From: Norana najaformis | Lineage: Eukaryota; Annelida; Clitellata; Crassiclitellata; Hormogastridae | Length of the DNA: 64,000 nucleotides | Assembly (NCBI GenBank): GCA_964023275.1 | Contig: OZ029917.1 | Coordinates: forward strand, 21,500,488-21,564,487 | Direction of reading: 5' to 3' | In this document: positions 682 to 58,397 of the stretch, piece after piece | How the letters are laid out: every line of letters begins with the position of its first letter | Numbering within the stretch: the stretch's first letter is position 1 | Notes under the pieces: generated by a model | The model's input: the letters and a program-made list of their open reading frames with translations, nothing else | The model's database searches: none | Told to the model about the DNA's origin: nothing | Made by a program: the position numbers and the translations under genes

Positions 682-12350
<11,669 letters not shown>

Positions 12351-25951: not shown

Positions 25952-26812
25952 AATTCTTCAGTTCCTGAGGGATTATACTTACCTCGGGCAAAAAAATAAA
26001 AATAATAATTATTATTATTATAGTCAAGTAATCAGTCGAATGCTTAGAACAACTATTTAAGGCACAATTTACTGGCAGATGAAAAAAGTTGAAAGTGAGC
26101 CATTTGATCAATCGATCATGTCACAAAGTGGATTTTTAATTTGTCTATCTATCTATGGCTGATAGAAGTCAACGAAAAACGACGAGTCTAGAAAACAGTT
26201 TTGTTTACATGCGCTCAGTCATGGCATAAAAGAAAGAAAATTTTTCAGAATCAGGTAGTCAGTTATACCAAAATTGTCACCACTGTAAAGTTTTTAAAAT
26301 GCACACAGTTCGTGTGACATTATACTATTATTATAGGCCAATGGCTTACGTTCTAGAATGCAGTGTTGAAGAGACGATCAGTTCACAAAACGAACACCGA
26401 GAGCCAGCCATGGATATGAAATCGTAGAGATTTCAATTTGTTATCCTCGGCATATGAGGGCAGATGTATTTGAAGCTCCGTCCTCAGACTGACAATTTAT
26501 AACGTCAGTCACTAAACCCCCAGTATAATCCTGGCCTAGCGATGAAAGGGCCATGTCATGTTATAATATGAGATTAACGCGCCAGACGTCAGAATTGAAT
26601 CAGATCAGGAACTGTACATTGATGTATCGTTGCGCTATATACTTTCTAGGCTGAAGTCTAATCCGCCGGATGTCCGTTCGCGCCATGACTTTTCGCAGTG
26701 GATGTGTCGTCTGCACAATGACGTCAACATCCGTCTCGGAAAACCAGAGTTCGACTGTTCCAAGGTCGACGAACGCTGGAAGGACGGCTGGAAGGACGGA
26801 AGCTGCGACTGA
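24462..26812 (+). CDS. GFER: GFER/ALR, FAD-linked sulfhydryl oxidase (ERV/ALR domain), first exon not found
   Basis: Two exons are certain: 24462-24757 and 26650-26812, joined in frame (AAGAC/GTAAGT to TTTCTAG/G). Family role: ALR reoxidises Mia40/CHCHD4 in the mitochondrial intermembrane space by passing electrons through a CxxC and FAD to cytochrome c or oxygen. Seen here: [19 protein letters not shown], the redox pair FYPCDMC, the FAD-contact helix [26 protein letters not shown] and the C-terminal GWKDGSCD. The structural cysteines (QWMC with FDC) and the inter-subunit pair (HDC with GSC) are kept; two extra cysteines of the human protein are absent. An acidic Gly/Gln/Ser-rich linker precedes the domain. 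The start codon must lie in an exon upstream of 24462, not identified. The intron holds a dead LINE fragment. A possible AATAAA is at 26946. Confidence 0.92.
24850..25085. repeat. AAT/ACT/ACC triplet microsatellite in GFER intron
   Basis: Mixed AAT, GAT, ACT and ACC triplets directly after the splice donor region of the first GFER exon found. Confidence 0.95.
25105..25880 (+). mobile_element. LINE ORF2 C-terminal remnant in GFER intron
   Basis: Two frames separated by a frameshift near 25345: APHAGDW-like [36 protein letters not shown], then [59 protein letters not shown] and [20 protein letters not shown]. This conserved tail follows the RT in a widespread invertebrate non-LTR class. Its 3' end CCAAGGGATTATACTTACC is followed by (AAT)n. 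Confidence 0.82.
25883..25950. repeat. (AAT)n tail of LINE remnant
   Basis: About 22 AAT triplets, followed by a second diverged copy of the LINE tail motif GGGATTATACTTACC at 25970. Confidence 0.95.
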
Positions 26813-34364: not shown

Positions 34365-34551
34365 CTAATTTTGTTGATAAATTCGTGCGTTTAGAATCAA
34401 TGACGATTGAAGAACTGTTGTGATTGAATTGTTCGTTGTATCATAGTATAATGACGGAACTTTGCCCGAGTCAACGCTACGCTGCGAATCGTGAGAGTCG
34501 ATGGTTCGAAGTCCTGTTGTTGACAGTTTCGAAGGATCGTCGAAACTCATT
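34365..34551 (-). CDS. selectin-like gene, cytoplasmic tail exon and stop
   Basis: With an acceptor at GAACCCAG/A the exon continues the transmembrane exon in phase 2 and reads MSFDDPSKLSTTGLRTIDSH, then SVDSGKVPSLYYDTTNN and a TAG stop. It is rich in Ser, Thr and Asp, with a Tyr pair that could be phosphorylated (inference). The open frame extends upstream to an ATG at 34619, so an alternative is the first exon of a separate gene. Confidence 0.55.
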
Positions 34552-37500
34552 CTGGGTTCATGAGCCAGCAAGAGATTAACTAAATCAGTCTGAGTTCCTG
34601 AATCTAATTCCGACGACATCAGATAAGAGAGAAGCAGCTTCTCATGCAGAATTTTAATCGTGTCTTTTGGAAAACACAGGAAACGGATACATATGAGGTT
34701 TGATGATTTTTCTCAAATTACAACCTCTTCTTAATATCCGCGGGCATTAAAATACTCTCTGCATATAATTTCTTAGTATCTGACCTGTGAATGTGTCATG
34801 CATAACATTAATATAAATATAAATACTTAAAATTTGCATCAATAGACAGGAAGAGAGAGATTACTGTGTTACAATAGAGGTTTGTTTCCATGGCATATTA
34901 GATAGCAACGCGAGCACATAGCACATATAGAAGCTTTTCAGGCGCTAGATAAATGCTTATAGGATATACGAACATAAACGTATATACATAGAATTTATAT
35001 AGCTCAAACTCGACCTCAGATAAAGCACCTAATGCGATAGAAGTTAGGAGGAAAAGGATGACGAAGACGACTGCTTCAACAGTTTCATCGATGCTGCTGC
35101 TGCTAGTGATGATGATGCTGAAATAGATCATAATGACGAAAGTAATAGAGATGAATTATTTTGGTTCTCACTATGGAGGATAATGATTAGAATTACAGCG
35201 GTTGCCTCCGCAATCTTTGCGTCATAGTTAATCCAGGTCGATTAATTATTCTGAACCTAATCACAAGCAGATTTCACTAAAAGTCATAGCAAAATATGCA
35301 GGCTATCTGCAGGTAATTTTACGGTTGGCCGGCGTTGGCAATCCGGTTGAATCCAACCGTGACGTTGTCTTTGAACATCTTGGCGTGTCGGACAAGATGA
35401 TCGAAATCCATGAGAACAACGAGAGCAATTTCGATGCTGATGAAGATTATGGCCACCGTCCCAATTGCCGCTGCGCCGTACGCTTCTACCGGCTCGATCT
35501 TTACTGTTTTGCCTGTCTCAGAATCTACCAGCGCATCACAACCAAACAGCTTTCTTCATTATTGTCACCACCATAACCAACACCACAAACAACAATAAAA
35601 CAACACCTTAGCACCACTACCACCACACCCTAACCACCACTACCACCAACACCATCATCATCAGCACCCCACTCCTGACCACCACAACCACCACTACTAT
35701 CACCACCGTCACCATCATTGTCACCACCACCACCACTCTAGCCATCACCACCTTAATTACTTACCACCACCACTATAATATACAGTCACTAGTAGTTGTT
35801 GCTCATCTTATGGCATAAAAGGCCGTTGACGTCGCCCTCCTCCTTTATCCAGGCTTGGGACTGGCACTACCCAGAAACAAGGCAGTGGCGAAGTTGTACA
35901 GTCACTTTACTAACCATCACCTTATAAACACCACCACAGCAATCATTTAGAAGGCCAGTCGACGGCGGTAAAGCAACCACAGAGTCGAAAGTTTTAAAGC
36001 CGACTAACATTGGCATGTTTTAAAATCAGGAATCCAGCTTCCGTTGGGTTGGCAGGTGGTTGTCAGAGTCATCACCTCTTCTGATACTTCTTCACTAAAC
36101 TGCTTTCCCTCGTTGCATCTGTACGTAACGACATCTCCGACTCGGCGACTGTCAGTCTCCGTTTCAATTCCGTTCCAGGTTGGAACGACTGAGCAGACAA
36201 CGGCTAAGAATTCGACAAATGACCAACGACACAACTGAGCGCGAGTCTGCTTTGTGTTTCTAATAGATAAGGAAGAGGCGCCTACACATCAATTACGCAA
36301 CGACAACTAGCACGACGCATTCCAGCCAAGGCCATTAACGCAGTCCAACAAGGCCAATAATGCATTCCTTTGCAGTCCAATGACGTATTCCTCTCAAGGT
36401 CAATAAAGCATATCCCAAAAGCAGTGACGCATCCCTCCAGAGGCCAACGACGCATTCCTCGCTTCTCTCAAGGCCAGTCACGAATTCTTCCCAAGGCCAA
36501 TCACGCATTCCCCCAAGGCCAATCACGCATCCCCCAAGGCCAATCACGCATTCCACCAAGGCCAATCACGCATTCCCCCAAGGCTAAGAGAAAATAATGG
36601 CCGTTTTTTACAGCAATGCCATGTACTTATGCTAAGAAATTTTTAAGGACCCATTTTATCATCACTATTTTTAATCACACTTCAAGGTTATGAGCGGGTT
36701 ATATATGGGTACTTATAATTTGTGCCAAATTACCTCTAACATCACCCTCGTCTATCAGTAATAAAGACAACTTCGCCTTTTATAAATATTGCTTATGGAT
36801 TCTGCTTCTCCTTAAAATCGATTTTCTTTCTACATGAAATTTCTAGGGCGTATCGTGCGTGATTCCTCTCAATTTGGACGCTCCAAGATAAGGCCATCTC
36901 CAAGCTTTTCCAACTAGATGCAACCTTTTATACGATCTTTTGCCTGAAGGCAGCAGCAAGAACATAATTGTGGCATATAGCAGAATTTTGACGCAAGACA
37001 AACGGCGCACTTTATCACGTTATGAAGTGTTGCTTTGCGATTGGCCAAAGGGGAATACGACAGCTTTGCTTTGTATGTATTTGTGTATGTATATATGCAT
37101 GTATGTATGTATGCGTGCATGTTTTTATGTCTGTCCTCATTCCATAGACTTGCCGTTATTCTACCAGATTATATGATTGCTTTTCTCCGACGATGCCTAA
37201 GACTGGAAATCCTTTTGGGCAACGGGTCTCTTCGGTTGCTGGGCCTAGATTTTTCAATTACATTAAGAGAAAGACACTCGGATAATTTGGCTGTCGTGTT
37301 CCCCTTTGGCCAATCGCAAAGTAAACCGCGCGGCTTCGTAACGTGACGACAGTGTGCCGTTTGTCTTGCGTTCAAATGCTGCTATATGCCATAATTATGT
37401 TCTTGTTTCTGACTTGTCTCAGCTTCAGTCAAAAGATCAGCCACAAATGTAGCCTAAAGGAACCGCAGAGTGTGCAAATACAATTCATGGCCTTACGTTG

Positions 37501-40500
37501 GCAGTGTGGCAGATTGTGTGGCAGACTGGAGTGATCATCAGACTTTTCAACTAAGTTCCACTTGTGTCCGGAACAGTTCAGCTCAACGTATGTTTGATCA
37601 CCGACCTCTTTCGGGAAACGATAACCAGATTTACAAGTGTAGCGTACAATACTTCCCTCTGTAACGTCTACTTCATCGTAAGTAGAATTTTCAACAACAG
37701 GTGGCTCCGGACATATTGCTGTTGGAAAAACAGAGAAAGAGAAATTTAAAAAGTACGCCTAATATTTATATAAACAGGGGTTTCATTTACATCAGCCTCG
37801 TCTATCAATATTAAGACAGCTTCTTCTTTCAGCTATGTTGCTTATGAATTTCTGGATACAACCTTTTATACGATCTTTCGACTGAAGCTGAGACAAGTCA
37901 GAAGCAAAAACATAATCATGACACATAGCAACATTTGAACACAAGACAAACGACGCACTGTCATCACGAAACCACGCGGTTTACTTTGCGATTGGCCGAA
38001 GGGGAATACGACAGCCTCGCTTTGTGTGTTTTTATATGTGTGTGTATGTATATGTGTTTTGTATGTATGCATGGACATATGTATGTATGTATGTATGTAC
38101 TGTATGTATGTATGGATACATGTGTTCATGTGTGCATGTATGCATGTATAGATGTAACTATGCATATATGCATATCTGTATCTATATATACATGCCTACG
38201 TGTATGTATATATGTATGACCTAGGCCTATGTGGCCTAATAGTCGGGTTAGGTACTCTATTAGTGGGGATGAACTAAGCTCATTAATTGCGCGTCCTTCA
38301 GTGATGCAATGAATATGAAGGTTGGCGTATTAGAAGTTGATGGTTAGAGATGGTCGTACCCTACAGAGGCGCTACACAAATATCTTAACAGAGAACGAAC
38401 AGTGAGACAATGGATTATTATAAAATAATTGTTTAATACACTTACGTTCAGATAACACGATTGTACAGATGTTGTATGAGAATTGATACACACGTCTTAA
38501 GCTAATCTAATTCTTAATACACTCACATTGACTAAGTTCTACGTATAGTCTAAGTTGGTCCTTGTCCTCTTCCTCCTCGCCGTCTTCCATCTCCCGGCAG
38601 ATTCGTCTGCGACTGATCTCTTCCGATCTTCTCTTCCAACTCCTCACAGTGCGCGTTTCTCGAGCTACTTTCTACTAGAATCCTACAGCCTTTGTCTGGA
38701 CTCTGGGCTGCCATACGTCTCAGACTTCAGTCTTCTTGCCTGCTTACGTCAGCGTTCACGTGCATCTCTGATTCTGATTCTAGGAATTCGTCAGAGACTG
38801 TCTTTGTTGTCTAAGGTAACTTTCACGTGATTCCCTGCCTACCTCCACGTGAGTTACTTGTAAGGTCCCGGATGGAGAGTGCTAGGCGCTATGATAGCTC
38901 TCTGCTATACTGGCCTGGAGCTGACTCAGTCTATGGTTGGTATCTATTACCAGTGTCTTTGTCTAGAAGCAAGCCAACTGCTGTGAATCACACGATTCAT
39001 ATAGCGCACTTTCTATCTATCATATATGTATGTATGTCCTCATTCCAGAGACTTGCCGTTATTCTACCAGCTTATCCCATTGCTTTTCCCTGGTGATGCC
39101 TAAGACCGGAACTCTTCGTGGTAAACGGGTCTCTTCGATTGCTCCGCCTAGATTTTCAACTCCCTTCCTGTAATTCTAATTTCTGCTCAATTGCTGGTGT
39201 CACTGCGTTCTCAAGGAAGACTTGCATTTTTCAAATTCCTATTCGTCATCATGGACAGACATTAAACCATAAGTGTAGCCTAAAGGAACCGCAGAGTGTA
39301 CAAATACAATTCATGGCCTTACGTTGGCAGTGTGGTAGATTGTGTGGCAGACTGAAGTGACTATCAGACTTTCCAACTAAGTTCCACTTGTGTCCGGAAC
39401 AGATCAGCTCAGCGTATGTTTGATCACCGACCTCTTTCGGGAAACGATAACCAGATTTACAAGTGTAGCGTACAATACTTCCCTCTGTAACGTCTACTTC
39501 ATCGTAAGTAGAATTTTCAACAACAGGTGGCTCCGGACATATTGCTGTTGGAAAAACAGAGAAAGAGAAATTTAAAAAGTACGCCTAATATTTATATAAA
39601 CAGGGGTTTCATTTACATCAGCCTCGTCTATCAATATTAAGACAGCTTCTTCTTTCAGCTATGTTGCTTATGAATTTCTGGATACAACCTTTTATACGAT
39701 CTTTCGACTGAAGCTGAGACAAGTCAGAAGCAAAAACATAATCATGACACATAGCAACATTTGAACACAAGACAAACGACGCACTGTCATCACGAAACCA
39801 CGCGGTTTACTTTGCGATTGGCCGAAGGGGAATACGACAGCCTCGCTTTGTGTGTTTTTATATGTGTGTGTATGTATATGTGTTTTGTATGTATGCATGG
39901 ACATATGTATGTATGTATGTATGTACTGTATGTATGTATGGATACATGTGTTCATGTGTGCATGTATGCATGTATAGATGTAACTATGCATATATGCATA
40001 TCTGTATCTATATATACATGCCTACGTGTATGTATATATGTATGACCTAGGCCTATGTGGCCTAATAGTCGGGTTAGGTACTCTATTAGTGGGGATGAAC
40101 TAAGCTCATTAATTGCGCGTCCTTCAGTGATGCAATGAATATGAAGGTTGGCGTATTAGAAGTTGATGGTTAGAGATGGTCGTACCCTACAGAGGCGCTA
40201 CACAAATATCTTAACAGAGAACGAACAGTGAGACAATGGATTATTATAAAATAATTGTTTAATACACTTACGTTCAGATAACACGATTGTACAGATGTTG
40301 TATGAGAATTGATACACACGTCTTAAGCTAATCTAATTCTTAATACACTCACATTGACTAAGTTCTACGTATAGTCTAAGTTGGTCCTTGTCCTCTTCCT
40401 CCTCGCCGTCTTCCATCTCCCGGCAGATTCGTCTGCGACTGATCTCTTCCGATCTTCTCTTCCAACTCCTCACAGTGCGCGTTTCTCGAGCTACTTTCTA

Positions 40501-43500
40501 CTAGAATCCTACAGCCTTTGTCTGGACTCTGGGCTGCCATACGTCTCAGACTTCAGTCTTCTTGCCTGCTTACGTCAGCGTTCACGTGCATCTCTGATTC
40601 TGATTCTAGGAATTCGTCAGAGACTGTCTTTGTTGTCTAAGGTAACTTTCACGTGATTCCCTGCCTACCTCCACGTGAGTTACTTGTAAGGTCCCGGATG
40701 GAGAGTGCTAGGCGCTATGATAGCTCTCTGCTATACTGGCCTGGAGCTGACTCAGTCTATGGTTGGTATCTATTACCAGTGTCTTTGTCTAGAAGCAAGC
40801 CAACTGCTGTGAATCACACGATTCATATAGCGCACTTTCTATCTATCATATATGTATGTATGTCCTCATTCCAGAGACTTGCCGTTATTCTACCAGCTTA
40901 TCCCATTGCTTTTCCCTGGTGATGCCTAAGACCGGAACTCTTCGTGGTAAACGGGTCTCTTCGATTGCTCCGCCTAGATTTTCAACTCCCTTCCTGTAAT
41001 TCTAATTTCTGCTCAATTGCTGGTGTCACTGCGTTCTCAAGGAAGACTTGCATTTTTCAAATTCCTATTCGTCATCATGGACAGACATTAAACCATAAGT
41101 GTAGCCTAAAGGAACCGCAGAGTGTACAAATACAATTCATGGCCTTACGTTGGCAGTGTGGTAGATTGTGTGGCAGACTGAAGTGACTATCAGACTTTCC
41201 AACTAAGTTCCACTTGTGTCCGGAACAGTTCAGCTCAACGTATGTTTGATCACCGACCTCTTTCGGGAAACGATAACCAGATTTACAAGTGTAGCGTACA
41301 ATACTTCCCTCTGTAACGTCTACTTCATCGTAAGTAGAATTTTCAACAACAGGTGGCTCCGGACATATTGCTGTTGGAAAAACAGAGAAAGAGAAATTTA
41401 AAAAGTACGCCTAATATTTATATAAACAGGGGTTTCATTTACATCAGCCTCGTCTATCAATATTAAGACAGCTTCTTCTTTCAGCTATGTTGCTTATGAA
41501 TTTCTGGATACAACCTTTTATACGATCTTTCGACTGAAGCTGAGACAAGTCAGAAGCAAAAACATAATCATGACACATAGCAACATTTGAACACAAGACA
41601 AACGACGCACTGTCATCACGAAACCACGCGGTTTACTTTGCGATTGGCCGAAGGGGAATACGACAGCCTCGCTTTGTGTGTTTTTATATGTGTGTGTATG
41701 TATATGTGTTTTGTATGTATGCATGGACATATGTATGTATGTATGTATGTACTGTATGTATGTATGGATACATGTGTTCATGTGTGCATGTATGCATGTA
41801 TAGATGTAACTATGCATATATGCATATCTGTATCTATATATACATGCCTACGTGTATGTATATATGTATGACCTAGGCCTATGTGGCCTAATAGTCGGGT
41901 TAGGTACTCTATTAGTGGGGATGAACTAAGCTCATTAATTGCGCGTCCTTCAGTGATGCAATGAATATGAAGGTTGGCGTATTAGAAGTTGATGGTTAGA
42001 GATGGTCGTACCCTACAGAGGCGCTACACAAATATCTTAACAGAGAACGAACAGTGAGACAATGGATTATTATAAAATAATTGTTTAATACACTTACGTT
42101 CAGATAACACGATTGTACAGATGTTGTATGAGAATTGATACACACGTCTTAAGCTAATCTAATTCTTAATACACTCACATTGACTAAGTTCTACGTATAG
42201 TCTAAGTTGGTCCTTGTCCTCTTCCTCCTCGCCGTCTTCCATCTCCCGGCAGATTCGTCTGCGACTGATCTCTTCCGATCTTCTCTTCCAACTCCTCACA
42301 GTGCGCGTTTCTCGAGCTACTTTCTACTAGAATCCTACAGCCTTTGTCTGGACTCTGGGCTGCCATACGTCTCAGACTTCAGTCTTCTTGCCTGCTTACG
42401 TCAGCGTTCACGTGCATCTCTGATTCTGATTCTAGGAATTCGTCAGAGACTGTCTTTGTTGTCTAAGGTAACTTTCACGTGATTCCCTGCCTACCTCCAC
42501 GTGAGTTACTTGTAAGGTCCCGGATGGAGAGTGCTAGGCGCTATGATAGCTCTCTGCTATACTGGCCTGGAGCTGACTCAGTCTATGGTTGGTATCTATT
42601 ACCAGTGTCTTTGTCTAGAAGCAAGCCAACTGCTGTGAATCACACGATTCATATAGCGCACTTTCTATCTATCATATATGTATGTATGTCCTCATTCCAG
42701 AGACTTGCCGTTATTCTACCAGCTTATCCCATTGCTTTTCCCTGGTGATGCCTAAGACCGGAACTCTTCGTGGTAAACGGGTCTCTTCGATTGCTCCGCC
42801 TAGATTTTCAACTCCCTTCCTGTAATTCTAATTTCTGCTCAATTGCTGGTGTCACTGCGTTCTCAAGGAAGACTTGCATTTTTCAAATTCCTATTCGTCA
42901 TCATGGACAGACATTAAACCATAAGTGTAGCCTAAAGGAACCGCAGAGTGTACAAATACAATTCATGGCCTTACGTTGGCAGTGTGGTAGATTGTGTGGC
43001 AGACTGAAGTGACTATCAGACTTTCCAACTAAGTTCCACTTGTGTCCGGAACAGATCAGCTCAGCGTATGTTTGATCACCGACCTCTTTCGGGAAACGAT
43101 AACCAGATTTACAAGTGTAGCGTACAATACTTCCCTCTGTAACGTCTACTTCATCGTAAGTAGAATTTTCAACAACAGGTGGCTCCGGACATATTGCTGT
43201 TGGAAAAACAGAGAAAGAGAAATTTAAAAAGTACGCCTAATATTTATATAAACAGGGGTTTCATTTACATCAGCCTCGTCTATCAATATTAAGACAGCTT
43301 CTTCTTTCAGCTATGTTGCTTATGAATTTCTGGATACAACCTTTTATACGATCTTTCGACTGAAGCTGAGACAAGTCAGAAGCAAAAACATAATCATGAC
43401 ACATAGCAACATTTGAACACAAGACAAACGACGCACTGTCATCACGAAACCACGCGGTTTACTTTGCGATTGGCCGAAGGGGAATACGACAGCCTCGCTT

Positions 43501-43554
43501 TGTGTGTTTTTATATGTGTGTGTATGTATATGTGTTTTGTATGTATGCATGGAC

Positions 43555-43585
<31 letters not shown>

Positions 43586-46500
43586 TGTACTGTATGTATG
43601 TATGGATACATGTGTTCATGTGTGCATGTATGCATGTATAGATGTAACTATGCATATATGCATATCTGTATCTATATATACATGCCTATGTGTATGTATA
43701 TATGTATGTATGTCCTCATTCCAGAGACTTGCCGTTATTCTACCAGCTTATCCCATTGCTTTTCCCTGGTGATGCCTAAGACCGGAACTCTTCGTGGTAA
43801 ACGGGTCTCTTCGATTGCTCCGCCTAGATTTTCAACTCCCTTCCTGTAATTCTAATTTCTGCTAATTGCTGGTGTCACTGCGTTCTCAAGGAAGACTTGC
43901 ATTTTTCAAATTCCTATTCGTCATCATGGACAGACATTAAACCATAAGTGTAGCCTAAAGGAACCGCAGAGTGTACAAATACAATTCATGGCCTTACGTT
44001 GGCAGTGTGGTAGATTGTGTGGCAGACTGAAGTGACTATCAGACTTTTCAACTAAGTTCCACTTGTGTCCGGAACAGTTCAGCTCAACGTATGTTTGATC
44101 ACCGACCTCTTTCGGAAAACGATAACCAGATTTACAAGTGTAGCGTACAATACTTCCCTCTGTAACGTCTACTTCATCGTAAGTAGAATTTTCAACAACA
44201 GGTGGCTCCGGACATATTGCTGTTGGAAAAACAGAGAAAGAGAAATTTAAAAAGTACGACTTATATTTATGTGAACAAGGGCTTCATTAAAAAAGTTACA
44301 TGCATAATAGATATACCCGATTAATATAGGTACACCCGATTATCCGAAGTCGAAGTTTAGTTCTTGCAGATGTGGTTCGACCATGTAAGGGTGTTTGGAA
44401 CAATTATAACGATGATGCAAATCCTAAGTTTAAAAATGTTTTTGTATTTTTTCTTAAAGTTCCCGTTTTAAATTTTCAACAACATAAGCATTTTGAAACG
44501 ACATAGTTGCGAGGGTTCTCGCCGCCAGTACCTGTTTTTATTACTGTAAAGAGTGTATGAAGCATATATATTTATCTCTCGTGGATCGTAGGTTTCCATT
44601 TGTACCTCGAATTTTTGATTTTTGTGGGGGTTCAGATTATCAGGTCATATGTCAAGTGATCTGTTGTGGCAGATATGTAATGAGGAAAGGACGAATCGTG
44701 ACGTTTTGAGGCTACAGGGACTTTGGTCTTAGCAGGATTTGATTTTTGTTATTTCTCTATGCTCACAGATTTTTGTTTACATTGAGGACCCAGTGAATGA
44801 TTGCTTCTTCTATAATAAATAATGCATAAGGTCTTCAAAAATTTGCTAAGTCTTCGTGAGGAAGATCACCATATTAATCGTGTACAACATGACGTGGTTA
44901 AAGATGTATGCAATAACTTTTAAATGAATAATTATAATGCTACATATGCTACAGTTTCCATGCTGCGTGTCTAGCTTACCTATGACATGAACAAAATCAC
45001 TCTGGTAAAATGAAATAGAATTTACTTCTATGACAATACTTACCATATATTATATAATTAAGTTACTCACGTAAAGCAAAGCCAACAAAGCCTAACAAAA
45101 GTAGGGGCAGAAGTCAAAACCGGCATTAAAAGACTTCAGCCAAAGAGAATAAGAGCGTAAGAACAAGAACAAGAACGATCCTGCCAAACCGAGTTATGAT
45201 ATAACTAGAGCCTACTTTACAACGCCACCAGAGATCGTCTCTACCTGCTTCACTGATCATAACAGCCGCCTTTCGTGTGCAATAACACCAAGGAGTAAAT
45301 AGATACGACCACGGAAGCCAGGGTATAGGATGAAGATGGGTCGCTTGCCCCTTCTAGAAATTACTTCTGAAGGGCCAAGATCGGGTCGGGACGACGTGTC
45401 CAGGTTTTCATAGTTTGCCCTACGGAAATTTCCGTGGGCGTCTATGCATATGAGATTCCAGGTCAACCCAGGAATTGACAAATCGGCCAATTTACAGTTT
45501 TAAAATTAATTTGCATTTGCCGGAAAACCAGTTGGAGTAGCTCAGTGCCGCAATTTAAGCTACGCGTTGTTTTGGTCTTAAATTCTGCTAGTGAAATTTC
45601 CTAATATATATAAATATATATTTTTAAATTAGCTTAAATTTTCTAAACAGACTTAATAGTTAGTCTAGTGTTCTATCAAGGAAGTGTTATATTACCCCGT
45701 TTGGTCTAGGGTACATGTATTTTATTGATCTAGTTGGCAAAGCATCCTGTTTCCTCATTGTCGTCCTTTCATTCACACCTCCAGACTTCCTTACTTTCCA
45801 AAACTACGTTGCGTATAGTCCACCGCGTCTTTCCTTCAGCAAAATTCTAACACCGGTCCACTACTAATCCAGGCCTGGTACCCTTTAATTAGATTGAGCT
45901 TAAGTCGGCCCATAAGCTGAAGGTTCTTCATTTGCCTCCTTTAGACTGCAGGCTTCGTTTTATACTCGCTGCACGTTTGAAGTTTCAGGTTGTTGTGATT
46001 GGCCATTCAGTCAAACCACGTGCTTCTTTTTAAGTTTTCCCCCTACCGATTGAAAACTAACATGGCGCTATTCACATCATTTTGCTGCGATTCTCAGCAT
46101 TACAGTCATCCTCTTTTGTTCACTTTCACACATACGCCCTCAGTTTCCCCAGCCATCGCCTCACGTCATCATTAGAACTATTGCCTCTATTTTATTTCAC
46201 CATGTTTTCCATGAAGCCCACTCCTTTTACGTTATCCAACCGGCCATGTCTAATATACCAACAAGCTTTTTTCTATCTCTGTCTATTTGCTCAACATATA
46301 CAGTACTCCAATTTTTCCATTTCGACACTTGAGACTAAAGCATACCGCAAATTACTTGTTTCTAGTTTGTCTACTGTTGCTCCTTTCTGGTGATATTGAG
46401 CTTAACCCTGGTCCATACCGTCTCAAAACTATTAATTTCTGCCACTTGATATTCATTCTGTCGGAAATAAGCCCCCTTTCTTAAAAATTACATCTCGGAT

Positions 46501-49500
46501 CATCTGTTAGATATTCTTGCTCTTAGTGAAACTCGGCTCCAACAGTCTGACACACCTTCCTTCATTTCGGACATGATTCCTGCCTCTTTCTCTCCTAAAT
46601 GAACCTCGGTTGAACAGACTTGGTGATGGAGTTGCCTTTCTTCACAAATCACACCTGTAACTTGCTCATTTTCCTTCATCTATTCCAACTCCAAAGTCAT
46701 TTGAAACCTTATTGCTACTCTGAACTCTGAAAATCGACACCTCCTTTTCGTAATATTTACTTACCGTTCGCCCTCCATTTCACTCTAGCTTTTTCTCTGA
46801 GTTCCAATCACTGCTTCTGTTCCAATCACCTTCTGAACTTATAACAACTAGCAACTTTAATATACACATAGATACTCTACACTATGCTTTAAACAATTTC
46901 TGGATTTCCTCTCTGGCTTTGATCTCATGCAACACGTTTCCTTCCGAATTCATGACATGGACCGTTTCGGCCTACTTGATCTCTTATCACCCAATCTAAC
47001 TGTTCTGCTGTTACGAATATCTCTTCTTCTGACTCATCTTTGTCTAACCATACTTCCATTGCTTCTTCGGTTTCTTTCCACTATAATTCGCCTCCTACTT
47101 ACTCTGTAATCAGTTATCCGTCCTTTGAAAATGCGCCCAGCACAGACGTCTACCGAACTAAATGTGCTTTATCTTAGATCCTGGATGAGCTCATTTCTAC
47201 TGTCCAAGAGAATTGCAGCACGCCCTTTTCAGCCCTGGTACAGCTCAGATGTTGCCGCTGCTTGGAGTCTGCGCAGCCAGCTTGCGAGATGTTGGTGCCT
47301 CAGTTACCTTCTCATCTCAAATTAGACGCGAGTACAGTAATGCCTGTGAACTTGTCTCAGCTGCAATATCTACCTACAAGCCTCATTAGGTCTTTGTATG
47401 TTCCTCTTTTCACAGCTTGCCAAAAGGTTCTTCCGTTTCGTTTCTTACTAGATCTCGGCCCTAAGACTCAACTTGTCCAACGTTCTCTTACCTGAAAGCC
47501 TTTCATACCTTAATTCTCCTCAACCGATGCTCAGCTTGCTGCAGCCAATAACCTTAACTGAGATTTGTAATTTCATTTTCTCATCATTTTCTAAACAAAG
47601 TACCTTGGATCCTATTCCTACCACCCTGTTAAAAGAATGCTTCCACGTCTTGGGCCCAAATATCACACCCATAGTCAACCTCTCGTCTGCTGAAGGCTGC
47701 TTCCCCGCCATTTTCGCTCATCTCTTAGTTTACCCTCTTCTTAAAAGACAACTATCCATCCTGGTGCTTTATTAAACTATCACCCAATTTCTCATCTCAA
47801 TTTTATTTCCAAAATTCTGAAAAAGTTGTTGCCAGTCGTCTGAGTAATCGCATTTCATCCCAAAACCTGTGAAAGTAAATGTACACGATTACATATGTCG
47901 ATTGTATTGTCTCGACCCTGCTCATTTTTCAATGAATTGATCGGGTGAGATCCTTTACCACCGCTGCTCGTTTGAATGGGCGCCACGCCATTTAAGTCCC
48001 CATGCTAGCCCGAGATTCAAATCTCTGAAACAAGCCACCTTCGGGTTGCGGACCGGGGATCCTCACGCATAGAGACTGCTTGGCGTATGTATACGCGTTT
48101 ACCGATGTAGCTACCTAGGCAGCTGTACCTTCTCTTCCAATCTGTCTTCCGTAAACAACATTCCAAACCCCACGACTTACCGTTCAAAATCTCAAAATCA
48201 ACTCCATGGGCTAAGGAAAAGTAACTGCTCTTTGCTCGTATTCTCCTTGACCTATCTCCTGTTTTTGACCCAGTTGATCACAGGATAATTCTTCACCGCT
48301 TCGAGCACGGGTTTAGTTTTCTGGTCCCGCTCTCCGTTGGTTTCGCATCTTACCTGTACCCTCGTACTCAGTCAATCCGTATCAACCAAATCACTTTTGA
48401 GCCTACTGTCTTGAATTGTGGCGTTCTACAAAGTTCTGTACTGGGCCCACTCCTGTTCACATTATACAAGAACCTGTTCGGTTAATGCTTACTGATAGCT
48501 CTCTTGACTACCACCTGCACGCTGATGATACCCAAAACAGACGGAGGAAAATGCAAAGAAGTATTATACTTCTGGTGTCGATAATGGTTGACTTTCTGCG
48601 CATAACTCTAACTATGTCCAGTGACAAAGAGATTTCCTGTCTGATTGATGGATCAGCTTATTCACTTAATGCTTTTCGAGTCGTGTGATTAATGGATGAA
48701 CTCTAAGCTAAACAAGTCCGTCGGAATTTATACTTACAGAGGATTGGCAAGAATTCGGCACTTCCGGGATTTAATACGTTTTCTATGCATTGTGTGTATA
48801 GGTCTATAGGAAGTGGCAGTGAGCAGATCCGTATATACAATTATACATCATAGTGCATTTACGCTTAGTATAGGCCTATTGCATAACGTATAAACCGGAA
48901 TAATTTATATCGAGGACGCCACCTAGTTCATCTATTGTGATGATATGCATAATATGATTAGGGTGTCAAGCGCAGACGATAAATTGGTTTATATGTCCAT
49001 TCTGATGGAGGCACTTTGAAGATGATTGTTGCTCAGGGGTCTTCGATCGGAACACGCCAAGAGTTGAAAGCTGTCTGTACATATCTCACCAGTTTCGCAA
49101 TGACTGCCTGTAAATCCGTCGAGACAGAGGCATTCGTATCGGCCCAATTTGTCAGCACAGATGCCGCCGTTCATACACGACACTTGAAGGCACTCGTTGA
49201 CCCCTAAAGAATGCACGCAAACTGTCCTTATCGACTTCAGTCTAGACCACGATACAGTAGTAGGTGCTGGGCATGTCGAAACGTCGTCATGCGAAATTAG
49301 CATTTGATCATGCAGCTCTTAAATCCGTGAGTAAAATGCCATCTGATTGCTTGAAAGATTACGTAATAATAACAGCAGCAGCAAGAGCAACAACAATAAC
49401 AATGATAGTAATAGCAGTAGTAATAATAATACTAGTAGTAGTAGTAGTGGTAGTAATAATAATAATAATGGTAGTAGTAGTAGTGGTAGTAATAGTAATG

Positions 49501-52500: not shown

Positions 52501-54062
52501 TTCAAATCAATTGTTTTAAATGGCAGTGCAAATGAGATTCAGAGCGCACTACTTATCAGGAGATGAGAAGTTTAAATTACGATTAAATGTACTAAATGAA
52601 CCATAGACCATGCATTATTAAGCTATTATTATATAGATTTTTGTCACCTCTTGTTATTTTTATTTTATCACGATGTTTTGTAGGTCATGCGAATTCTCTT
52701 ACACTGATTTGATTTGAATGCAACATTCTCTCTTCTGAAGTTGCATACTTCTATCCACTGATGGAAGGAAACCCGGTTGCTACATATAGTTGCACTGGAC
52801 TTCCACACTAACACTGACGGTTGATTATGTTCGTATGCGTGCATGGGATTAGCGACTTAGGGGCTTCAGGGGTCGTATTGGACGTACGCTCCTTAACCTT
52901 GATGGATTGGCGCACGGCGTGCCTAATTGCGTTCTCATTATGCCCCAGACACCACTAATCCGCTTCGACCTGTGCCTTTGAATCCTATCACCACCTGAAG
53001 GAGACATCTAAGAAGATAACCACTTGGACTGTTGATGATTTCATATGCAGGGAGTCGAGCCTAGCAGAAGTCCAGATTTTACCCACTTTACCACCATGCC
53101 ATTTCAAACTGATTTCACAGTTACATCATTCGATTCGATGATGTACTTGCTTTTCATTGCTCCCTTCCTTCCTTCTTTCCTTCCTTAAATCCATGAACTC
53201 GTTGCCTGTTGGAGTTGATCCAACGCATCACTGTTTATGCCATTATCATCATCATCATCATCACCACCACCACCATCATCATCATCATCACCACCATCAT
53301 CATCACCACCACCGCCACCACCATCTCGTCGTCGTCACCGTCACCATTTTGCTTTCAGACGACGGTAAGCAGTTGCCTGTTAGTTGCTTGGCGGTCATCT
53401 GGCAGAAGACAGCGATGATGCCCGCTGCCTGGCAGCAGGGATAGTCGTGCCACTGAATGCTCGGCCTGTGTTCTCTTGCCTTCGCGACAACACAATCTTC
53501 GTCCTTATTCGAGCCAACTCCGCCGCTGTTCGGTTCACCTGAGACCAATCAACAACAACCGACGTGATCTAATGACTTTTACGGCCCCGAGATCTAAGGC
53601 GCAAGACATCTACTGGTGGCCTGTTATAAGCCACACACTATATGACTGGCCTTCAAATGATCTGGTCCGTTGAGAGCATTTAAAAAGGCGCCAAATAAAT
53701 TCTCAGATATATGCAGTTTGTTTTATGGGTTCATTTGACAATTGTAAAAATACCGAATAACCCAAAGAGGTGAAGAGAGAATCTTTATGAATTTAGAGGG
53801 CGTGCAAATAATGTATTTGAGTCAGTTCAGCCAGCAGCGTTAGGTCTTTTACTCTTTAGAACAGCACCTACCTGTATCCCACTGCGTCTCCATCTGTGGG
53901 TCGAACTTTGTTCCGTCAAACCAGGTCCAGTTGCCCTCGACTTCAACGTCATTCAAACCAATGTATGCGCTTTTCCTAAGATGATGCTGCGGAAACGTCA
54001 CATGTCCGAATTTAGCTCGATTTGCGTTGAAGCATAAGTGCTAGTCACCAATGCTAGGAAAT

Positions 54063-54126
<64 letters not shown>

Positions 54127-57100
54127 TAGACAGACAGACAGATAGACAGACAGACAGAGTAGAAAAGTTTATTTACTCATTTACTTGCTTACTTACTGAC
54201 AGACAGACAGACAAAACATGTACAGATGCAGATACACATATTCAGGTGCAGATACAGACCACGTATACACCAAAACAGATACATATGCCACTAAGTTTAC
54301 TAACCTGTGCAGGCTAAAAGTATTCCACCCCTTATATTCACTTCAGCTAACATCAGATTACAGATTCGTCTCTACTTTAATGCATACGCGTTGACTTCAG
54401 CGCTTTCCAACATCTGCTTTTGTTAACTTCATTTATTTCAACAACAGATCCACTGAATAGTATTGCGAGAAGACGCAATACTCTCGATACTTTTGGCAAT
54501 ACAGTATGTTTTTTAAGATGAAATATCTGTGCTACGAGTCGGCTGATATGGTTTTGCGACATCACTGCTAAATATGGCGCGTTTAAAGACACAGTTTTTC
54601 AAGTATTCCGATTTAGCTTTTGCTTGCAAGAAAAGATATAGACTATGTGTTTCAATAAATCTCGCAGATCGTCTTTGCTGTCTGTCGTGTCTGAGTGATT
54701 TGCATGATTTTATCAATTATTATGTAAGTAAGCAAGTAAATAAGTAAGCAAGTAAGTAAGTCTGTCTGTCTGTCTGTCTATCTCTGTCTGTCTGTCTGTC
54801 TAATTTCCTAGCCTAGCCTTCAAAACAAATCTGGCTCAATTCAAGGTATCAGGCAGAAGTTGATTTAGATAATAAACTACTATATTTTAAATGTTATACT
54901 GAGAATGCCAGAATCGCTTGAACGTGTCTATTTTGACTCACATCCGCAATACGGCTAAGCAAAGCTCCACCATATATAGCCAACGGGTCTCAGGCGCGAG
55001 TTCTGGAGAGACAAGTGAACGGACACACAAACACACGGATAGCTGTTGCCAATTACTACTTATGAGCAAGACCTACTGATCATGTTCCTGCCAGCTTGCC
55101 CATATGGGGTCCTTATGGGACCCATATTCCCATATGGGACCTTCGTAGGGCCCATATGGGTGCTATCAAAATGTTTATGGGAAAATCTTACTGACTGAAG
55201 GGTGTTTTTAAGTAACGTTGCAGCCGTGTCAGAGCTCTGTTGGTCAATTGAGGCAATCTCTCCTCCTATGGACCAGCACTTCTTACGAGACTCGTACACT
55301 GACTCAAATCCGTTCTTCTCAGTCGCATGTAGAACCATGAGGCACTTCTGCGAGGACTGAAGCCAAACGCCTTGGTGAGGACAGTCTACATCTAAAGAAA
55401 ACGAACGAGTTTGTTAATTAGACAGACTAAAACTTCTCAAGAATGCAGCACGATTTGATGGTGTATATGAACGTCATATATACAGTATTGGCCTACATAC
55501 AGTGTGTCAGATATGTTCCTTTTTCTTGACGAGCAGTTGCGTTTTTGCGTTTCGTAACGTATGTATTGTGAGGGCACAGAGTAAGTGCATCAATCCTTGT
55601 CTCAAGCTGATGTAGACTCAATATTTAATATTTGTCTCTGAACTTATGGAACATCGAGGGGATGACCTGTATTATGTAGTGATATTATATTCTGGAGGGT
55701 TTACATCTGTCAGTGGAGATTGCAGTTCCAGCTAGGGCCACTGACAATGCAAATAAAGAGGTCCCCCGGGTAAGTAGTTTAATTAAATATGAAAATATGT
55801 ATATTGACACCCGATAAGGGTCAGTTGGAGGGCAGTCTAAGCAAGCAGTTGGAAGGCACATGGCTATGAGCATTGGCAGGGGAAATCAATGTATAGGAGG
55901 CCAAGGAGTCATTGGTTTGAGGAGAGGGGCAGACGGAAAAGGGCACAAAATAAGGCTGTGCACAGGTATCTGAGTCTTCTGTTCTGGTGGTTCTTCCGGA
56001 AGTGTCTTCTGGTGGTGCCTTCTGGTGGTGGTTTGTCTGCATGGTGAAGTTTCTTTGGACTGGACTGCTATCGTCTCCAGAAAGACAGGAGCAGGGACTC
56101 CAACCGAACAGCAAACAAGGGTAAGCGAGCCAAACAGTGTTAAGAAATAGGTAGAAGAAACCCTCTGGTGTTAGGTAGCTAACTGTGCGGTCTTGAAGAA
56201 GAAAAAGAAACAAAACGTGAAAGAGAATCTGTTTGTTTGGGCTCGGAGCACAAAGAGTCTTCGAGCTGCGTTCAAGTGACAAGAGACCCGTTGATTCCAT
56301 TTAGTTAACTGCCCCTTTATCCCGGTACAAGGCGCATTATGGATTCTGTAAGGCCGTCCATAAGCCGATTGTAGAATATTTATTTCGTGAAATCCGTATG
56401 TCTGGCAGAGCTGATTGACTTTAATGTGTAATAAAGTAGTTATATTTAAACGTGTCTGTGCTTAGTTGCACGTTGTATAGTTATATTCACATATAAAATC
56501 GCGTAGTCTAAAATGTTCTCAATTTCTAGCCGGAATAATTCTTCTGTGGGGTCACGAGATATAGGGCCGAACTCCCCAAAACCGGACCCCGACTTACTGG
56601 CTGGGGTCGCTGCATCACCCTGGGACGCGGCAGCCTTCGGCATCATCCTGGTACAGAGGTCCTATTCCGCATTCTACTCGTGAGGAGCTGGAACCCGACA
56701 AGTCCGATCAAAACAAAAGTAGGAATTCGTCACAGTATGCACGCATATAAAGGAACGCAATACTGAGTTTCTTGTTCAGGTATAGCGGAACTTCATCTTC
56801 TCAAACACGGATATCGACAAATAATAATTATACTGTGGCGAATTAGTTTGTTATAAATTGCAATTGCTGATTTGCAAGTAGTCTGATGTCTAGAAAAATA
56901 TACGACTACTAATCTGATTTCGTGACTTGTGACATTTTACCGTATCTGAGAAAACCCTCACAAAGTCGGAAAAGCTAATTTGCGATAAGCACCTTCAGAA
57001 AGCATTAAGCATAAAATGAGTAAAATGAATTGTTTGCATAATTATATTCCCTGTTGTGTCAATTATCAAACTGTAAGTCCTTACATATATAGTTTCGCTG

Positions 57101-58397
57101 TAAAAATATTTTTATTTTCAATTGTATATTTGATGCCGTGCAACAAATACTCACTTAACATACCCCTGAGTGCGCTAATTTGAAGCCGTGTGCACCGATT
57201 GTTATTCAGTTGACCAATTCATGTAAATACTCATCTTTAACCAGTTTTTTAAAGAAAGATTTCATTGATGGCAGCCTCGGGAGATGACTGCGCTCCAATT
57301 TATACATGTACTATACTCATAACATTCACTATCTACACTTAGATCGAATCATAGTTATGGTAAACTTTATCTCGAGGTTTCTCACAATAGCTGCAAACAT
57401 TGTAATTTTTTACTATTTGTGATAAAGATATTCTGTTTCACCTAACTATTTAGTAATTCCATCCCATTTCACTACAGCATCAAACCCGGTTTTAAGTTTC
57501 CCGACCTTATAAAGGTTTTCTCAGGCACGGTCAGATATAGTCTATCCGTAAATTCTGCGACAAGAGTCATTAAGTTGTCGTGGCAATTTTATTATGCAAG
57601 AGTCAGCCAGAAGAACGCCGTTGTAAACAACGTCATCCTCTAGATGATTAATTCAAAGCCACTTTATCCAGCACAATAGCACCTAGCAGTATACACAGAA
57701 TAATCTCGTTGAACACCATCAAAGTTCCGAGGAAAAGACTCACCAGTGGGCACTGCGATGTACAAAAACAGTCGTCAACATCAGATACAGCGCTGAAGCG
57801 TCTTAAGCTAATGACCTCATTAAAGAAGCTCAATAGTGCGCCAAATTTGAAGTGTTTCTCAGAAAGCAGCCACCGCAAGCGCTGAACAAATTAGACCGAA
57901 AAAAACGAGGAGTGTTCATGGCATTCGTCGGACACAATGTCTTTCGAAGAAGACCACAACCCCAAACACATCATCACTGTGCAGGTAATTACACAGCACC
58001 ACTCTGATCAAATAACCGGTTTCCCTTAAAAACGGATGTTTCCGTCGTTTAGAATCAAAACAATTGCGCTTCATTCGGCGAAGGTCTGAAGTCAATCTAT
58101 CCAATCTAAACACACGACTGTGTCTTTCTTGACAGCTAAGATGGCGCGCATTCCTAGAATTCGTGTCTTGCAGAAATAGCGACACCAAAGGGCAAACTGT
58201 TTTCCTATTCCTAAGGGCTGTAGTTGCTTTAGCTCCATCTATAGGCTGTAGTTGCGGCTGCTTTTGTAACTTATACATAAATGATGAATGTGTTAAAGCC
58301 GCGTTGTTCCTCAGTTCTGAAGGTACTTACCTTGCGTCGTAGACCATGTTCCCCTTGCATTAAAACCGATGAACAAGATTAAGCCGAACGCAATCAT
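34365..58397 (-). CDS. selectin-like membrane protein: signal peptide, C-type lectin, EGF, six CCP/sushi modules, TM, cytoplasmic tail
   Basis: Exons in order: 58397-58331 (signal peptide), 55391-55192, 53986-53872 and 53538 to about 53360 (C-type lectin domain), 49203-49090 (EGF), 44219-43998, 43196-42975, 41370-41149, 39544-39323, 37718-37497 and 36203-36009 (CCP modules), 35524-35323 (transmembrane), 34551-34365 (tail). Every junction except the one from lectin exon to EGF was checked for phase, and all agree (EGF and CCP exons are phase 1-1). The order CTLD-EGF-CCPn-TM is that of vertebrate selectins, cell-surface adhesion lectins. In vertebrate selectins the CTLD is one exon; here it is split in three, and the CCP exons are lineage-amplified, so convergence or an ancestral relative are both possible. 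Function is inferred: a calcium-dependent carbohydrate-binding surface receptor. The joint between 53360 and 49203 is unresolved and may hide another exon. Confidence 0.83.
35323..35524 (-). CDS. selectin-like gene, transmembrane exon
   Basis: The exon of 202 bases (phase 1 in, phase 2 out) encodes a short polar stalk (SETGKTVKIEPVEAYG), a hydrophobic segment with core GTVAIIFISIEIALVVLM, then DFDHLVRHAKMFKDN, a mixed basic juxtamembrane stretch. This fits a single-pass type I protein with the CCP stalk outside. The pyrimidine tract before the acceptor is poor, which is the main doubt. Confidence 0.72.
35580..35780. repeat. CAC/ACC-rich simple repeat
   Basis: Irregular CCACCA and CATCAC triplets in the intron between the TM exon and the sixth CCP exon. 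Confidence 0.85.
35791..35896 (-). mobile_element. short retroelement family D, 106 bp, with 10-bp target duplication
   Basis: Flanked by TACAGTCACT at 35781-35790 and 35897-35906. The body matches the copy at 20106-20227: AAAAGGCCGTTGACGTCGCC, CTCCTCCTTTATCCAGGC, TTGGGACTGGCACTACCC and AAACAAGGCAGTGGCGAAG. The minus-strand end is CTA/CAA-rich. Confidence 0.85.
36009..36203 (-). CDS. CCP/sushi exon, membrane-proximal sixth module
   Basis: The 195-base phase 1-1 exon is not part of the array. It encodes VCSVVPTWNGIE, GDVVTYRCNEGKQF, TTTCQPNGSWIPDFKTCQ: four cysteines and the NGSW motif typical of CCP modules. The donor is the non-consensus GTTAGT; a phase-1 exit at that site joins in frame to the transmembrane exon. 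Confidence 0.82.
36315..36590. repeat. degenerate minisatellite, about 20-bp unit
   Basis: Around 13 copies of CCAAGGCCAATCACGCATTC with indels, best conserved from 36470 onward, in the intron upstream of the sixth CCP exon. The Gly-rich minus-strand frame over it is an artefact. Confidence 0.92.
36934..37438. mobile_element. foldback/MITE-like element with about 135-bp inverted arms
   Basis: The arm from 36934 (GATCTTTTGCCTGAAG, then AAGACAAACGGCGCAC and GCGATTGGCCAAAGGGGAA) returns in reverse complement ending at 37438. The interior holds GTAT repeats and CCTCATTCCATAGACTTG. In the array introns only the left arm and interior survive, so the right arm was lost before amplification. Confidence 0.6.
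37497..37718 (-). CDS. CCP/sushi exon, array copy 1
   Basis: V/N variant and the most diverged of the five array exons (VEKSDDHSSLPH against VGKSDSHFSLPH), consistent with an older edge copy. Coding and splice sites are intact. Confidence 0.88.
38218..39031. mobile_element. 814-bp insertion inside the GTAT tract of the array intron (copy in first interval)
   Basis: Introns at 37.7-39.3, 39.5-41.1 and 41.4-43.0 kb carry about 814 bp that the 43.2-44.0 kb intron and the diverged 36.7-37.5 kb intron lack; there the GTAT repeat runs straight into GTCCTCATTCCAGAGAC. The size follows from 1826-1023 plus a 12-bp repeat gain and a 1-bp loss. Start and end are approximate because the target is a microsatellite. 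No coding region or terminal repeats were recognised; it begins near ACCTAGGCCTATGTGG. Further copies lie at 40044-40857 and 41870-42683. Confidence 0.7.
39323..39544 (-). CDS. CCP/sushi exon, array copy 2
   Basis: A/I variant, apparently identical in exon sequence to copy 4. Module layout CPEPP...YTC...LICSGHKW...LPHC gives the two CCP disulfides. Intact, with no stop or frameshift. Confidence 0.88.
41149..41370 (-). CDS. CCP/sushi exon, array copy 3
   Basis: V/N variant of the array exon. By eye it differs from copies 2 and 4 at two bases only (41229 and 41238), both changing the protein. The flanking introns look identical to those of copy 2. Confidence 0.88.
42975..43196 (-). CDS. CCP/sushi exon, array copy 4
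   Basis: Same exon as the other array copies with the same splice sites (CCAACAG/CA and CAAC/GTAAGG). A/I variant: TYAELICSG in place of TYVELNCSG. The following intron, towards lower coordinates, carries the 814-bp insertion. Confidence 0.88.
43998..44219 (-). CDS. CCP/sushi exon, array copy 5 (first in transcript)
   Basis: The 222-base phase 1-1 exon encodes one sushi module: ICPEPPVVENS, VRYTCKSGYRF, VELNCSGHKWNL and LPHC, four cysteines and the conserved Trp. About 73 residues is a little longer than the usual 60. It is the V/N variant (TYVELNCSG) and differs from other copies by a silent TTT/TTC and a Glu in NLVEKS. It sits 1023 bp from copy 4, whereas the other copies are 1826 bp apart. 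Confidence 0.88.
44280..45900. other. intron of the selectin-like gene, no further CCP exon seen
   Basis: AT-rich DNA between the first CCP exon and the antisense LINE. No CCP-like cysteine pattern was found on the minus strand. From about 45700 the sequence is probably the 5' UTR of the LINE. Confidence 0.5.
46389..46415 (+). other. 2A-like ribosome-skipping motif in LINE
   Basis: Encodes GDIELNPGP preceded by a Leu-rich stretch. It fits the consensus D-x-E-x-N-P-G-P of 2A peptides, known at the N-terminus of some invertebrate CR1-like LINEs. The frame continues only to a stop near 46484, so it is no longer functional here. Confidence 0.85.
47884..48140 (-). mobile_element. SINE-C copy nested in LINE
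   Basis: Interrupts the LINE RT frame. Reverse complement has a box-A-like TAGCTACATCGGTAAACGCG, a diverged box B, TTTGAATCTCGGGCTAGC, GGCGTGGCGCCCATTCAAAC and GATCTCACCCGATCAATTC. This is the longest copy and gives the family size of about 260 bp. Confidence 0.82.
49090..49203 (-). CDS. selectin-like gene, EGF-like domain exon
   Basis: The 114-base phase 1-1 exon encodes GVNECLQVSCMNGGICADK, LGRYECLCLDGFTGSHCET: six cysteines in EGF spacing (C-x5-C-x4-C-x8-C-x-C-x8-C) with the G-F-T-G turn. The acceptor is TTCTTTAG and the donor ACTG/GTGAGA. Its last base plus CA of the first CCP exon gives Ala, so the joined protein reads HCETA-ICPEPP, a natural EGF-to-CCP junction. Confidence 0.88.
49363..49605. 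repeat. AGT/AAT/AGC triplet microsatellite
   Basis: AGCAGC, AATAGTAAT, AGTAGTGGT and AATAATAAT triplets over 240 bases, upstream of the EGF exon in its intron. Confidence 0.96.
50851..52125 (+). mobile_element. non-autonomous hAT element with 8-bp target duplication
   Basis: Left end CAGGGTCGGCCTTAACCTC and right end complement CAGGGCCGGCCTTAGGTATA, CAGGCAGTTGCCTGGAGCGC. Flanked on both sides by CCTATATC (50843-50850, 52126-52133), the 8-bp duplication expected of hAT transposons. 1275 bp, no transposase. A SINE-A remnant (51890-51955) is nested within. It lies in the intron between the lectin and EGF exons. Confidence 0.92.
51890..51955 (+). mobile_element. SINE-A 3' fragment nested in hAT element
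   Basis: CGGGACCTTGAACAAGTCCC, TCACTCTTAATTTTATTAG and TGATTAAATAGACCTAA align with the SINE-A middle and 3' part; the head is gone. Confidence 0.6.
53238..53345. repeat. (ATC)n/(ACC)n microsatellite next to lectin exon
   Basis: ATC and ACC triplets run to within a few bases of the last lectin-domain exon and obscure its splice donor. Confidence 0.93.
53360..53538 (-). CDS. selectin-like gene, C-type lectin domain exon 3 (end uncertain)
   Basis: Carries GEPNSGG, KDEDCV, a WHD where WND is usual, then YPC and VFCQM: the last two thirds of the sugar-binding loop and the final cysteines. EPN is the mannose-type Ca2+-site motif also found in selectins, and KDEDCV is shared with E-selectin. The acceptor GGTCTCAG/GT is clear. 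The donor is not: the reading frame runs into a GTG/GAC-rich microsatellite, and no phase-1 GT that would join directly to the EGF exon is visible, so the given end is approximate. Confidence 0.75.
53872..53986 (-). CDS. selectin-like gene, C-type lectin domain exon 2
   Basis: The exon has 115 bases. It contains AYIGLNDVEVEGNWTWFDGT, the WIGL-x-D...EGxWxWxDG block of C-type lectin domains, with Tyr replacing the usual Trp of WIGL. The donor ACAG/GTAGGT leaves one base that completes Gly with the next exon, producing the GEPN calcium-site motif across the splice junction. Confidence 0.85.
54053..54812. mobile_element. 760-bp element with terminal inverted repeats containing (GACA)n
   Basis: Left end GCTAGGAAATTAGACAGACA, right end its exact complement TGTCTGTCTAATTTCCTAGC. 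The arms continue inward through GACA repeats and GTTTATTTACTCATTTACTT-like sequence matched by AAGTAAATAAGTAAGC on the right. No coding region and no clear target duplication. Intronic, between lectin exons 1 and 2. Confidence 0.75.
55076..55165. repeat. clustered CCCATATGGG palindromes
   Basis: GCCCATATGGGGTCC, GGGACCCATATTCCC, CCCATATGGGACC and GGGCCCATATGGGTG within 90 bases, directly after the donor of lectin exon 1. Confidence 0.85.
55192..55391 (-). CDS. selectin-like gene, C-type lectin domain exon 1
   Basis: Encodes 66 residues: the long-form N-terminal cysteine hairpin (DCPHQGVWLQSSQKC), then ESRKKCWSIGGEIASI, which fits the conserved first core cysteine and the G-G-x-[IL]-A strand of C-type lectin domains. 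The acceptor is TTTCTTTAG/AT and the donor is TCA/GTAAGA. It exits in phase 0, matching the next exon. Confidence 0.82.
55392..58330. other. first intron of the selectin-like gene, nothing recognised
   Basis: Read on both strands; open frames of 60-160 codons occur but have no family motif, and no splice-phase partner was found. No repeat copy of the families above was seen. Confidence 0.5.
58331..58397 (-). CDS. selectin-like gene, signal-peptide exon
   Basis: Starts MIAFGLILFIGF and gives 22 residues plus one base before a consensus donor (CAAG/GTAAGT). The hydrophobic core followed by small and polar residues reads as a secretory signal. The split codon G/AT joins exactly to the lectin exon at 55391 to give an Asp before DCPHQGVW. 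No upstream in-frame ATG was needed. Upstream at 58660-58860 is a microsatellite; no TATA box is obvious. Confidence 0.8.

Follow-up and report, generated by a model that had tools for sequence, protein, structure and literature searches.

A candidate annelid receptor gene with the domain plan of vertebrate selectins and recently duplicated CCP exons

Selectins mediate the adhesion of white blood cells to vessel walls. The vertebrate selectins SELL, SELE, and SELP share with the annelid locus described here an N-terminal C-type lectin domain (CTLD), one EGF module, a stalk of CCP (sushi) modules, one transmembrane segment, a short tail, and the motifs EPN and EDC. Lecticans such as versican, which were generic matches of a protein search with the whole gene model, also combine CTLD, EGF, and CCP modules in one protein; they are secreted, carry link domains, and have the EGF module before the CTLD and the CCP module after it. 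To our knowledge, no Group XIV CTLD protein has a run of CCPs between the EGF module and the membrane segment. The members of this group (thrombomodulin, CD93, endosialin, and CETM, the last as described in PMC514892) have in common with the locus a CTLD followed by EGF and a transmembrane segment.

An earlier note on this DNA had treated the order CTLD-EGF-CCPn-TM as the definition of vertebrate selectins, which needs a caveat in view of the type-A P-selectins of clams (PMC9484242) and of furrowed (PMC5712786), as far as the accessible text of these reports goes. A total of 90 bivalve "P-selectins," mostly CCP-only, have been listed, and the type-A forms, with CCPs plus CLECT or EGF, number 3 and 15 in two clams (PMC9484242). 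These type-A proteins resemble the present locus in being lophotrochozoan and CCP-rich and in having CLECT or EGF, a likeness drawn from their description only. Drosophila furrowed has been termed P-selectin-like (PMC5820395) and acts in cell adhesion (PMC5712786, PMC9954269, PMC5820395), furrowed-type proteins combine an F-type lectin domain with a CTLD, CCPs, and a transmembrane segment (PMC5712786), and Tribolium CTL15 has been described as the only selectin that its genome encodes (PMC9954269). Furrowed and CTL15, termed invertebrate selectins, share with the worm model a CTLD, several CCPs, and a transmembrane segment. However, furrowed has an F-type lectin domain, whereas the worm model has none among its Pfam matches and has one EGF module; EGF is unmentioned for the insect proteins in the accessible text, where the term occurs 0 times in PMC9954269. 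Bivalve proteins that combine CCPs with a CTLD or an EGF module and insect proteins with a CTLD, CCPs, and a transmembrane segment have, in these sources, already been named selectins. In rotifers, an EGF module precedes the carbohydrate recognition domain, a pair reported as new for Lophotrochozoa (PMC8878817). The available portion of a report on a gutless annelid gives 33 C-type lectins as well as mixed SRCR proteins and describes no such architecture (PMC5117596), and the literature searched yielded no description of such a gene in an annelid.

The locus lies in a stretch of 64,000 nucleotides of the Norana najaformis genome (the window), on contig 5 of an assembly of 608,420,607 bases in 17 contigs. 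Twelve minus-strand exons spanning 58397 to 35319 join into a spliced model of 722 amino acids with no stop or frameshift, in the order signal peptide, CTLD (three exons), EGF, six CCPs, and membrane segment with short tail. Exon 1 (58331..58397) holds the start codon and the signal peptide (22 amino acids plus a split codon) and ends at a phase-1 donor scoring 11.8, within the top 0.2% of the GT sites of the strand. The CTLD is divided among exon 2 (55192..55391; first part, with the N-terminal cysteine pair C26/C39 and C61), exon 3 (53872..53986; middle part, with YIGLND and W.W.DGT), and exon 4 (53377..53538; end, with EPN, EDC, WHD, and the last cysteines), which matched a local CTLD HMM with E values of 3.2e-9, 7.3e-11, and 4.7e-7, respectively. 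The EGF exon (49090..49203) is phase 1 at both ends (acceptor, 6.8; donor, 9.3), and all six CCP exons likewise have phase-1 borders. The last exon (35319..35524) encodes the 19-mer with the highest hydrophobicity in the model (mean, 2.64), a tail of about 30 amino acids, and the stop codon. Pfam searches with the separate modules gave 47.4 bits for Lectin_C (cutoff, 22.6), 32.3 bits for EGF (cutoff, 21.5), and, against a Sushi cutoff of 20.7, 22.4 bits for CCP1 and 29.4 bits for CCP6. When 2166 six-frame ORFs from the window were scanned with motifs and phmmer, one CTLD, one credible EGF, and five CCP copies were recovered; CCP6 escaped the pattern used. A Circovir_ORF3 match just over the Pfam cutoff in the CCP stretch of the whole model was taken as chance. 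These results confirm that the modules named earlier are real and stand in the order claimed, with EPN and EDC present, but the motif expected as WND reads WHD.

Splice sites were scored with hand-typed consensus matrices. Most sites score well; those that are fair or weak are the exon 2 donor (3.2, against 9.0 for its acceptor), both CCP6 sites (2.6 and 3.7, merely fair), and the membrane-exon acceptor (2.0). Two boundaries of the gene were corrected. A start of exon 3 at 54040 has a poor acceptor (40.5% rank among the AG sites of the strand) and was replaced by 53986, whose phase-0 acceptor (6.8) is within the top 3.4%; this change raised the Lectin_C score from 37.0 to 47.4 bits, a gain of 10 bits that provides independent support for it. 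The locus had also been thought to extend to 34365, which is not borne out: ORF 34365-34712, considered as a tail exon, has neither a well-scored phase-matched splice site nor a Pfam match, and the membrane exon carries its own stop at 35319-35321. Downstream of this exon, a strongly hydrophobic open frame of 85 amino acids occupies 34898-35155 on the minus strand.

GT-AG sites lie in phase at every junction except that between the CTLD and the EGF module, so that the claim of matching splice phases stands for all other junctions but requires a GC donor here. Downstream of the final cysteine of the CTLD, phase-1 GT donors are absent, and the GC donor (acag|gcaact) is the sole in-phase choice; the 3' end of exon 4, set at this donor, is uncertain. 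Two fair GT donors are phase 0, and the unspliced frame stops at 53303-53305. The open continuation of exon 4 as far as this stop, along which phase-1 GT donors are absent, would suit a pair of genes, namely, a secreted single-CTLD lectin (exons 1 to 4, ending at that stop) and a downstream EGF-CCP-TM gene with its own start. AATAAA-like signals after exon 4 at 52664, 51937, 51247, and 50112 point the same way, as do retroelement-like remains, seen by eye and given no confirmation by Pfam, in the 4.2-kb gap before the EGF exon. However, the read-through extension of exon 4 is of low complexity (..TTTRWWWRWW), and the EGF exon begins at a good phase-1 acceptor, which indicates that coding does not start with this exon. 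A search of both strands for signal-peptide-like exons returned 26 loose candidates (10 minus and 16 plus), among which exon 1 alone combines a markedly hydrophobic core with a strong phase-1 donor. None with a phase-1 donor was found between exon 4 and the EGF exon at the thresholds used, which favors one gene. A division into two genes is judged rather unlikely, and the CTLD, EGF, CCPs, and membrane segment likely belong to a single transcript, as read from exon structure.

The CCP stalk is encoded by CCP1 (43998..44219), its near-copies CCP2 (42975..43196), CCP3 (41149..41370), CCP4 (39323..39544), and CCP5 (37497..37718), and the divergent CCP6 (36009..36203). CCP2 to CCP5 share 96 to 99% identity with CCP1 (96% for CCP2, 99% for CCP3, and 97% for CCP5), the exon DNA of CCP4 shows 0 differences from that of CCP2 over 222 sites, and CCP6 has 22% identity to CCP1. 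The exons of CCP1 to CCP5 are carried by tandem repeats of 1826 bp, with a last step of 1023 bp, and are the product of recent tandem duplication. The array (37441-44288) consists of three full 1826-bp units, which differ at 2 to 10 sites among them, one unit of reduced length, and a final copy; V/A and N/I variants alternate along the units. An identical stretch of 803 bp occurs in three of the units (38217-39019, 40043-40845, and 41869-42671) and is missing from the fourth, where its site lies between TATGTATG-like repeats; it looks like an insertion that was afterwards duplicated. Selection on the CCP exons was considered and set aside: the excess of exon differences among the three full units (7/222 versus 3/1604) is mostly contributed by the outer margin of the outermost unit and disappears in the five-copy comparison (8/222 versus 9/125; p 0.19).

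Units 2 and 3 of the array differ at only 2 of 1826 sites, and arrays of this type are prone to miscounting in assembly; together with the one odd junction, between the CTLD and the EGF module, this might suggest a decaying or misassembled locus, with an artefactual repeat of the CCP exons or an artefactual union of the two halves. However, 12 of the 12 exons are open and without frameshift, the window lies within an assembly of as few as 17 contigs, and divergence is seen at the outer edges of the outer copies of the array, as expected of a real one. An artefact of this kind is considered improbable.

An AlphaFold model of CCP1 had a mean pLDDT of 79.9 (the best of five; the others ranged from 74.3 to 50.0), and its top PDB matches in Foldseek were mostly sushi-bearing proteins, none at an E value of 1e-3 or better. 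The CCP is most similar to complement regulators, and 0 of 56 matches were selectins.

The relationship of the other modules to selectins was addressed with PDB searches and phylogeny. The best matches of the corrected CTLD were mincle, SP-D, and mannose receptors, with no selectin among the best 60 of 102 matches, and those of the EGF module were Notch and Delta, with no selectin among the best 60 of 149 matches. An older CTLD model with a longer exon 3 matched L-selectin (1.1e-4) and E-selectin (1.4e-3), behind many other lectins. A phylogeny of the CTLD alone (16 rows), proposed earlier as a check, placed the window CTLD on a very long branch not joined to the selectins; forcing it together with them cost 6.3 log units and was not rejected (AU p 0.235), so that this tree carries little weight in either direction. 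Structural differences from selectins are stronger. In the alignments, the window CTLD is of the long form, with C26 and C39 ahead of C61, a pair absent from L-, P-, and E-selectin, whereas selectin CTLDs are short-form and abut the EGF module; the cysteines of the CTLD and EGF module are spaced by 12 residues here versus 4 in selectins. The coding of the CTLD by three exons is, as noted earlier, unlike the vertebrate arrangement, since in Fugu selectin models the CTLD is on one 5' exon, according to the accessible part of PMC514892. At the sugar site, EPN, EDC, and the D of WND are kept, but WND, which is the selectin motif and is read in 7 of 7 other aligned sequences, is replaced by WHD, which makes calcium and sugar binding doubtful.

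The earlier note had left two options, an ancient relative of selectins or independent assembly of the same type of receptor. The same module order, the presence of EPN and EDC as in selectins, and the AU test, in which a selectin clade was not rejected, would be compatible with a genuine relative of selectins retained from the bilaterian ancestor onward, its CTLD introns and long form being either ancestral or gained. The PDB rankings, the long form, the 12-residue link, and the tree give the ancient relative no support, and surveys saw practically no CTLD groups common to vertebrates and invertebrates, in the part of PMC514892 available. Such a relative is regarded as very improbable, and more remote still is a selectin-type receptor in the annelid-vertebrate ancestor whose old three-exon, long-form CTLD was later streamlined in vertebrates. 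The locus falls short of a selectin orthologue. As its parts are without clear descent from selectins, the plan was probably assembled twice, and independent assembly appears to be the better of the two options.

Relatives of the gene were sought in the same genome and in protein collections. The CTLD query gave 3 matches in the 608-Mb genome, all its own exons, with no close copy elsewhere, and the CCP query gave its own five copies and two matches of 37 to 41% on contig 1, the best beyond the locus being 41% over 55 amino acids. PF00084 occurs in at least 134 places (150 of 237 candidates scored) and PF00059 in at least 90 (150 of 373 candidates scored). For a search for CTLD-Sushi pairs, 90 CTLD places were compared with 91 Sushi places, after 43 had been dropped, all of them by eye part of an array on contig 3 at 41.26 Mb. 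The closest pair elsewhere in the lists compared was 250,703 bases apart, a check that is insensitive and misses such genes, because the exons of the window itself are absent from both lists. A local CTLD profile detected no other CTLD exon at 28 loci beyond one match with an E value of 0.77. The contig 3 region at about 41.26 Mb (loci L001-L005) contains a sushi-rich open frame of 2562 amino acids, a large CCP protein intronless over that stretch. No relative with the whole order was found in a collection of 5.8 billion proteins, in which the whole model gave 8 weak matches when the 7993 candidates sharing most words were scored; residues 1-245 gave 2 matches among 258 candidates, in the EGF module only. 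Scans for tRNAs, Rfam families, and the phage collection gave nothing useful.

Another gene in the window bears on its lineage. A GFER/ALR sulfhydryl oxidase is encoded by two plus-strand exons (24408-24761 and 26567-26809). In a tree of 21 proteins chosen from the best 120 of 514 found, the window protein, that of the leech Helobdella, and a metagenome protein form one group (100/100), and without the long-branched metagenome row Helobdella and the window group with 100/99. The pairwise identities to fish, starfish, and leech are nearly equal (67 to 73%) and do not single out Helobdella, so the annelid placement rests on the tree. No bacterial or archaeal kin of the assembly was present in the collection compared. 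The claim that an invertebrate gene has the selectin-type order is upheld, with the order present in the sequence and the GFER tree grouping the window with Helobdella. Two minus-strand kinase-like exons (8218-8574 and 3559-3735) are AAK1/BMP2K-like by eye; the first matches Pkinase with 17.5 bits, below the cutoff, and the second has no Pfam match. A plus-strand ORF at 46254-46484 contains GDIELNPGP, which we take to be a 2A-like peptide, next to reverse-transcriptase-like fragments, and those fragments tried against Pfam gave no match.

On balance, the locus is probably a single annelid gene for a receptor of the selectin plan that was convergently assembled and whose CCP stalk was lately lengthened. 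The gene would encode a type I membrane protein with a CTLD tip, an EGF hinge, a CCP stalk, an anchor, and a short tail. It may work in a selectin-like manner, with the lectin held away from the cell, and the lectin may bind glycans of cells or microbes, leading to adhesion or recognition. The module order probably arose independently through shuffling of phase-1 modules, and the stalk would have been lengthened recently through tandem duplication. If the transcript is confirmed, the locus would be a concrete example of the selectin plan from an annelid. It would raise the questions of whether a plan of lectin tip, EGF hinge, and CCP stalk recurs because it is suited to adhesion and of whether the annelid gene acts in the adhesion of coelomocytes, in epithelial contact, or in the recognition of microbes. 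Its recently formed CCP array provides a natural test for change in stalk length.
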